Source of the DNA: an uncultured Pelagibacteraceae bacterium
GTDB lineage: Bacteria > Pseudomonadota > Alphaproteobacteria > Pelagibacterales > Pelagibacteraceae
DNA: 50,074 nt
Direction of reading: 5' to 3'
Assembly: GCA_902599575.1 (NCBI GenBank)
Contig: CACKFS010000005.1
Span: 1-50,074 of the forward strand
The notes beneath the pieces are model-generated. The model had not been told where the DNA came from. It searched no databases and was given only the letters and a program-made list of their open reading frames with translations. A program made the translations under genes and the position numbers. Positions 14,312 to 16,908 of the stretch are shown here, in pieces. Position 1 is the stretch's first letter, and each line of letters starts with the position of its first letter.

Positions 14312-16015
14312 ATGGCTAAGACTAAAAAGAAAGCTATTAAAAAGAGAAGAAAGAAAACGAAAAAGTCGATTAAAAGAAAGAAAAAACTTAAAAGCGGAAC
14401 GACAAGGAAACTTTCTAAATCATCAAAAAAAGCTAAGTCGAAGTCAAAAAAGCGTAAAACAAATGGAGGAAAAATGAGTGCAGAAATGAAATTGTCTTCT
14501 GTTCTGGATACATCTCATTTGAAGGTCAAATTTCCGTTTAAAGCTAAATACGGAAACTACATCAACGGTAAATTTGTAGAGCCTAAATCTGGAAAGTATT
14601 TTGACAATACTTCTCCGATTTCAAATGAAAAAATCTGTGCAGTTGCAAGATCAAATGAAAAAGACGTGGATGCAGCATTAGATGCAGCTCACGCAGCTTT
14701 TCCGTCTTGGGGTAAAACTTCAATTACGGAAAGATCTAACATGTTACTTAAAGTAGCTGATGCGATTGAGAAAAACTTAAACACATTAGCTGTAGCAGAG
14801 TGTTTAGATAATGGTAAGCCAATCAGAGAATGTATGGCTGCAGACCTACCTTTAGTGATTGATCACTGGAGATATTTTGCAGGTGTAATTAGAGCTGAAG
14901 AAGGTTCAATTGCTGAGATTAGCAGCGGTGAATATTCTTACCATATACCTGAGCCACTAGGTGTAGTTGGACAAATTATACCTTGGAACTTCCCTTTACT
15001 AATGGCAACTTGGAAACTTGCTCCAGCATTAGCAGCTGGGAACTGTGTGGTTTTAAAACCTGCAGAGCAAACTCCAGCTTCGATCATGGTATTGATGGAA
15101 CTTATTGGTGATATATTACCTCCAGGTGTAGTTAACATTGTAAGCGGTTTTGGTTTGGAAGCTGGTAAACCTTTAGCATCTTCTAAAAGAATAAGAAAAG
15201 TTGCTTTCACTGGTGAAACAACAACTGGTAGATTGATAATGCAATACGCATCACAAAACTTAATTCCAATTACTTTAGAATTAGGTGGTAAATCTCCTAA
15301 CATTTATTTTGAAGACGTTATGGATAAAGACGATGACTTCTTCGACAAATGTCTAGAAGGTTTTGCGATGTTTACATTAAACCAAGGAGAAGTTTGTACT
15401 TGTCCAAGTAGAGCATTAGTACAAGAGTCTATCTATGATAAGTTCATGGAAAGGGCTGTTGCAAGAACTAAAGCAGTTAAACAAGACAATCCTTTAAAAA
15501 TGGAAACAATGATTGGTGCGCAAGCTTCATTAGAACAAATGGAAAAAATCAAATCTTATCTAGATTTAGGTAAGAAAGAAGGTGCCAAAGTTCTATGTGG
15601 AGGAAATGTTGCTAAAATCAATAGTGGTTTAGAAAAAGGAAACTACATTGAGCCAACTATTTTCGAAGGTAAAAACGACATGAGAATATTCCAAGAAGAA
15701 ATTTTTGGACCTGTTGTTTCTGTAACTAAATTCAAAGACGAGAAAGAAGCATTAGAAATTGCTAATGACACTCTTTATGGTTTAGGTGCAGGAGTATGGA
15801 CTAGAAATGGAAATCGTGCGTTTAGAATGGGTAGAGAAATCCAAGCTGGTAGAGTTTGGACAAACTGCTATCACGCATATCCAGCTCATGCTGCTTTCGG
15901 TGGATACAAACAATCTGGTATCGGAAGAGAAACACATAAAATGATGCTTAACCACTACAGACAAGTGAAGAACTTACACGTGTCTTACAGTGAAAAGAAA
16001 TTAGGCTTCTTTTAA
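14312..16015 (+). CDS. NAD-dependent aldehyde dehydrogenase; Lys/Arg-rich 54-aa N-terminal extension or alternative start at 14474
   Basis: [50 protein letters not shown] active site; GGAGG (14465-14469) sits 4 nt upstream of an internal ATG at 14474. Confidence 0.93.
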
Positions 16016-16452: not shown

Positions 16453-16480
16453 TTGACTTGTTACCTTTTTAAAATATGTT
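16453..16480 (+). promoter_or_regulatory. predicted promoter of DsrE-like gene
   Basis: TTGACT (16453-16458), 16-nt spacer, TATGTT (16475-16480). Confidence 0.5.
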
Positions 16481-16507
16481 ATATTATAACATGTTATAAT
16501 ATAACAT
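16476..16507. promoter_or_regulatory. 32-bp perfect palindrome formed by two abutting 15-bp operators
   Basis: ATGTTATATTATAACATGTTATAATATAACAT; halves TGTTATATTATAACA (16477-16491) and TGTTATAATATAACA (16492-16506) are each 7-1-7 inverted repeats. Confidence 0.8.
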
Positions 16508-16530
16508 TTAACAATTAAGGAGTTTATTTT

Positions 16531-16908
16531 ATGAAAATCGCGTACGTTTTCAAAAGTAATATGGCAAGTACTTTTCAATTGGGCACTATGATATTACCTC
16601 AGCTAGAGGATAATTCTCATTTAGTTAATGTCGTTGGAATGTTTTTCTTCGATGACAATATTATGTGTCTTCAAAAAGGTAATCCGGTGGGAGAGCGTTT
16701 AGCAAAGATTGCAAAAGAGAAGAAAATGCTTCTTATGGTTTGTGATCAATGTGCAGTCAGAAGAGAATTAGCAGAAGGTACTTTTGAGCAATGTGGTAGT
16801 GGAGAAGTTAAAGCAAAAGGTCTAGTTGATGGTGTAGTTGCGGGTTGTTTTCCTCAATTATATACTGCTCTTGGTCCTAATCCACCAGACCAAGTAATCA
16901 CACTTTAA
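16531..16908 (+). CDS. DsrE-like small protein
   Basis: KIAYVFKSNMASTFQLGTMILPQLED, CDQCAVRREL, GVVAGCFPQLYTAL; strong RBS (aaggag) at 16517-16522. Confidence 0.7.
   Translation: MKIAYVFKSNMASTFQLGTMILPQLEDNSHLVNVVGMFFFDDNIMCLQKGNPVGERLAKIAKEKKMLLMVCDQCAVRRELAEGTFEQCGSGEVKAKGLVDGVVAGCFPQLYTALGPNPPDQVITL

Follow-up and report, generated by a model that had tools for sequence, protein, structure and literature searches.

A tandem operator upstream of a DsrE-fold gene in Pelagibacteraceae matches the zinc-uptake operator of the genus and is predicted to bind Zur

Introduction

The DNA analysed here (the window, a stretch of 50,074 nucleotides from an uncultured Pelagibacteraceae bacterium) holds a long perfect palindrome directly in front of a gene for a small DsrE-fold protein. 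Matches of this protein and the relatives of the genome assign the window to Pelagibacter (SAR11). Which regulator recognizes this palindrome, and to which signal does the gene respond? A sequence-only reading had predicted tight, probably cooperative repression by a dimeric sensor and, in view of the cysteine-containing product, had favored a sulfur- or redox-responsive regulator, for example of the ArsR type. By sequence analysis we found that the site is identical to the znu/zur operator of the genus, that it is conserved, that it changes in parallel with the operators of zinc genes and that the controlled gene is linked to zinc genes. The palindrome is very probably a double operator of the zinc sensor Zur that represses the DsrE-fold gene and releases it under zinc starvation. 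This names the likely regulator of a previously unexplained operator and gives the Zur regulon of SAR11 a definition in sequence, comprising znuA, znuCB-zur and, in some strains, the DsrE-fold gene.

Two boxes over a predicted promoter

The palindrome is perfectly self-complementary over 32 bp, at the position given in Table 1, and resolves into two 15-bp inverted repeats placed side by side, both as the sequence-only reading had described. No longer perfect palindrome occurs in the window, which has a GC content of 30%. In a first-order Markov simulation with 100 replicates the longest palindrome was 24 bp; counts fell about 0.29-fold with each added pair, and extrapolation to 32 bp gives a chance expectation of ~ 1e-4 palindromes per window. 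Both repeats fit TGTTATA-W-TATAACA (7-1-7). Because each box departs from a palindrome only at the W in its middle, which is T in one copy and A in the other, the 32-bp symmetry needs no extra cause. A scan of the window and its own genome with up to three mismatches was uninformative due to the AT-rich background; control motifs matched equally often.

The palindrome had also been described as starting at a predicted −10 element. A −35-like TTGACT, at 16453 where that reading let the feature begin, is indeed followed 16 bp on by TATGTT, although the match to the promoter consensus is weak (9 of 12 positions).

Table 1 Features of the putative operator and the gene behind it (positions in the window)
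Feature	Position	Strand	Basis or remark
Predicted promoter TTGACT-16-TATGTT	16453..16480	+	Consensus match only; −10 and the beginning of box 1 overlap
Two abutting putative Zur boxes, 32-bp perfect palindrome ATGTTATATTATAACATGTTATAATATAACAT	16476..16507	.	Sequence reading, simulation
Putative Zur box 1, TGTTATATTATAACA, 7-1-7	16477..16491	.	Same as the znuA/znuCB-zur site of the genus
Putative Zur box 2, TGTTATAATATAACA	16492..16506	.	Restricted to the subclade of the window
Ribosome-binding site AAGGAG	16517..16522	+	Read from sequence
Controlled gene, 125-aa DsrE-fold protein	16531..16908	+	NCBIfam NF040913 (SaoD/DsrE family)

The same operator at zinc uptake genes

Of 121 Pelagibacter genomes, 64 contain the exact sequence TGTTATAWTATAACA, with 67 sites in total, while the reversed control sequence does not occur at all. 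All 67 sites were classified: 61 lie in the divergent promoter of znuA and znuC-znuB-zur (identified by Pfam and NCBIfam matches to ZnuA, a ZnuC-type ATPase and ZnuB) and the other six upstream of the DsrE gene, namely two in the window and the rest in G008, G016, G032 and G104. Most of the znu sites have a second near-copy at a distance of 18 bp (16 bp in two cases). A regulon scan had been proposed as a check; its exact sites lie at these two kinds of promoter only. Allowing one mismatch, boxes were found upstream of 50 of 73 DsrE orthologs, 10 of 12 znuA genes and 2 of 495 other open reading frames, counts that do not represent independent events since the loci are often close kin; both box-bearing other frames share a divergent intergenic region with a DsrE gene. 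Conservation upstream of orthologs is found for the single box and not for the pair. The box is absent at about a third of the DsrE orthologs, mostly outside the marine Alphaproteobacteria.

Where the operator changes, it changes at both kinds of gene. TGTAATA half-sites are found at both DsrE and znu in G160 and G164, G168 contains exactly two copies of TGCAATAWTATTGCA, one in front of a zur-like gene and the other in front of DsrE, and longer sites of the AATGTAATGTTATAACATTACATT type are located at DsrE and znuA in the SAR116 loci L088 and L237. Such parallel change at DsrE and zinc genes is simply explained by a shared regulator. The operon behind TGCAATAWTATTGCA in L247 and L248 (G168 and G165), consisting of the zur-like gene and an unknown membrane-like gene, may represent another kind of zinc regulon in marine bacteria; in the related G165 (L248) the zur-like gene leads an operon with the zinc uptake protein ZrgA (PF10986).

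Because the sequence marks the znuA/znuCB-zur promoter in the whole genus and is the same as the Zur box already known, we take Zur, the zinc sensor of the Fur family, as the most likely regulator. For proteobacteria the Zur box has been published as GAAATGTTATA-N-TATAACATTTC (PMC4219657), and the window carries two exact TGTTATA-N-TATAACA copies that match this consensus. For Sinorhizobium fredii, gel shifts have proven a box of the 7-1-7 type at znuA and znuC-znuB-zur (PMC7029138); the SAR11 site resembles the rhizobial one in its repeat and in the arrangement of the znu genes, but a DsrE-fold gene was not found among the reported rhizobial targets. The inner 15 bp of the E. coli Zur box, known from the znuABC, zinT, L31p and pliG operators, are likewise TGTTATA-N-TATAACA, and both operators overlap a promoter, which in the window is a predicted one; the window differs in having two full boxes in direct contact, with their centres 15 bp apart. 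The Zur box itself is ordinary. In SAR11, znuA was reported in half of the genomes, always together with a Fur-family gene (PMC4771312); that study contains neither an operator definition nor a site-based assignment to Zur nor a link to DsrE.

A sulfur- or redox-responsive repressor of the ArsR type, as first proposed, would suit a product with a DsrE fold and four invariant cysteines, but its chance of being the regulator appears negligible since the identical operator lies on znuA and znuCB-zur across the genus. Moreover, no ArsR-type gene stands beside any ortholog examined, and the recurrent linked regulator is the Fur-family Zur.

In the Zur-based mechanism that we propose, zinc-loaded Zur dimers would sit on both 15-bp boxes in zinc-replete cells, cover the −10 element and the transcript start and so keep the DsrE-fold gene from being transcribed. 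When zinc runs short, Zur would lose its zinc and leave the DNA, so that the gene would be expressed along with znuABC. That Zur binds, in which direction it regulates and how many dimers are bound are what we infer here.

One box or two

The abutting pair is present in the window, L021-L024 and L291, with one mismatch in L022 and L024, while the sister strains L025-L029 have box 1 only in an otherwise alignable promoter. Confined to one subclade with such sisters, the pair is, as judged from the alignments, lineage-specific and arisen by recent duplication or loss. The distance between paired boxes varies among loci (5, 15, 16, 18 or about 21 bp). Upstream of DsrE in L043, L049-L050, L054, L056 and L058 we observed TGTTATGTTATAACATAACA, in which two 7-1-7 boxes overlap by 10 bp at an offset of 5, an arrangement that would be another way of placing two dimers.

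In the window box 1 overlaps the predicted −10 element, and in L036-L041 a single box lies between TTGACA and TATGAT and takes up their 17-bp spacer exactly, again in a predicted promoter. Across these loci the conserved feature is the coverage of the predicted promoter and not the 32-bp element. This position also bears on a reading of the palindrome as an RNA hairpin, that is a structure of the 5′-UTR or an attenuator, instead of a protein site. The transcript of the window could indeed pair over 14 bp with −11.1 kcal/mol. However, the one-box orthologs fold weakly (−1.8 to −6.3 kcal/mol), a box that fills the −35/−10 spacer, as in L036-L041, would remain untranscribed, one box serves two divergent genes at znu, and a terminator-like T run is missing downstream of the palindrome. 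On these grounds we rejected the hairpin, which we regard as very improbable.

A candidate Zur in SAR11

A search of the window's own assembly (723 kb, 53% complete) found neither zur nor znuA; the earlier statement that the regulator is not encoded adjacent to the palindrome holds for this genome. We deduce the presence of Zur in the host from relatives such as the closely related G016, which has the entire znu-zur locus and a DsrE protein with 99% identity. The own genome encodes two other Fur-family proteins, and 7-1-7 operators are common to this family. Both points would suit another member, of the Fur/Mur or Irr type, that binds the boxes and confers a response to iron or manganese instead of zinc. 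We consider this highly unlikely, because all exact sites in the genus lie at znu/zur or the DsrE gene, the box is the one published for Zur and the neighbours are zinc genes (znuABC, zrgA, zigA).

The Zur candidate of SAR11 (L161:4377-4787) comes after znuCB and belongs to the Fur family (PF01475, 29.1 bits). Its best matches among solved structures are Zur 7dh7 (1.1e-16) and E. coli Zur 4mtd (3.4e-12). As it reaches only 68.9 bits against the NCBIfam Zur cut-off of 167 bits (PRK11639), a model that we read as centred on enterobacteria, the protein is named by its operon and nearest structure and not by this equivalog. In E. coli Zur, Tyr45 and Arg65 contact bases, and Asp49-Arg52 form a salt bridge between dimers (PMC6103462). 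According to the alignment, Tyr45 and Arg65 are conserved in the SAR11 candidate as Tyr34 and Arg53, and these common recognition residues fit the common box. In contrast, Asp49 and Arg52 are replaced by Phe38 and Gln41, and cooperativity of the E. coli type is not supported by the sequence. Of the repression that had been predicted initially, the tandem operator for a dimeric sensor, overlapping the predicted promoter, remains supported; cooperativity is no more than a possibility, as the salt-bridge residues are not conserved and the spacing varies. The second box probably tightens repression.

A DsrE-fold protein predicted to belong to the zinc-starvation response

The product of the controlled gene matches the NCBIfam family NF040913 (DsrE_rel_ELSE) over its full length (198.6 bits; cut-off 152), while no Pfam family matched at E ≤ 0.001. 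Its initial description as DsrE-like is justified at the level of the fold: the AlphaFold2 model (pLDDT 94.5) finds DsrE 2hy5_A (1.9e-5), 3mc3 and the TusBCD chain 2d1p_A as best matches in Foldseek. Across 40 relatives drawn from several phyla, Cys71, Cys74, Cys88 and Cys106 never vary. As only 22 of 399 genomes of the genus carry the gene, it is accessory; when the family was sought across the class, just 6 of the 385 alphaproteobacterial genomes searched had it. At two good family matches outside the genus no obvious box was seen in the one orientation viewed.

The Pelagibacter loci L031, L035, L036 and L163 have the DsrE gene and znuA tail to tail within the cluster that also holds zur, with a box in each of the two promoters. 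Zur repeatedly targets COG0523, folE and other paralogs of this sort (PMC6103462). In 15 loci the DsrE gene adjoins the gene of the zinc chaperone GTPase ZigA (COG0523), and HisI, FolE or a second znu set is nearby in some. The SAR116 locus L088 contains folE, zur, a COG0523 GTPase gene, DsrE, DUF1636 and a second znuCBA set in one run. In L045, L060, L061 and L074 the COG0523 gene follows DsrE by 3–6 bp; the three of these that were tested reached 587–594 bits, just under the ZigA equivalog cut-off of 600. On the Verrucomicrobia-labelled contigs L042, L072 and L075 DsrE is close to a hisI paralog and zigA.

The shared operator predicts that the DsrE-fold protein belongs to the zinc-starvation response and not to a sulfur or redox circuit. 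NCBIfam assigns no function to NF040913, and the link to zinc comes from the present analysis; in the open-access literature we found nothing relevant on a connection of DsrE with Zur or COG0523 and no description of a DsrE-fold protein that has four invariant cysteines and is under Zur control. We tentatively suggest, giving the idea somewhat less than an even chance, that the NF040913 family has a new and widespread role in zinc starvation and not in sulfur relay; it might, for instance, carry zinc on its thiols or act as a partner of ZigA/COG0523. An uncharacterised DsrE-fold family is thereby tied to zinc limitation, and an inference drawn from the fold is corrected: a DsrE-like product need not mean a sulfur-responsive promoter. 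Since few bacteria are as abundant as SAR11 in the zinc-poor surface ocean, the DsrE-fold gene could serve as a testable marker of zinc stress.

Some neighbours of the DsrE gene were conspicuous in their own right. Directly after it, L021:4410-5552 and similar frames in L022, L023 and L030 encode a secreted-looking, histidine-rich, porin-like protein of ~ 380 amino acids with an N-terminal EEGHEGHDHGAHGG followed by SHSH and HAHGG; the protein has no Pfam match, is absent from the window and is a candidate for a Zur-controlled outer-membrane zinc protein. Behind the COG0523 gene that neighbours DsrE, L088:2459-3511 and related frames in L089 and L090 encode a WD40-repeat protein; it recurs in these three distant loci and is possibly another part of the zinc response. 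In the window, the ExaC-like aldehyde dehydrogenase at 14312-16015 has an N-terminal tail of ~ 55 residues, nearly all Lys, Arg, Ser and Thr, which recurs in relatives, e.g. L021.
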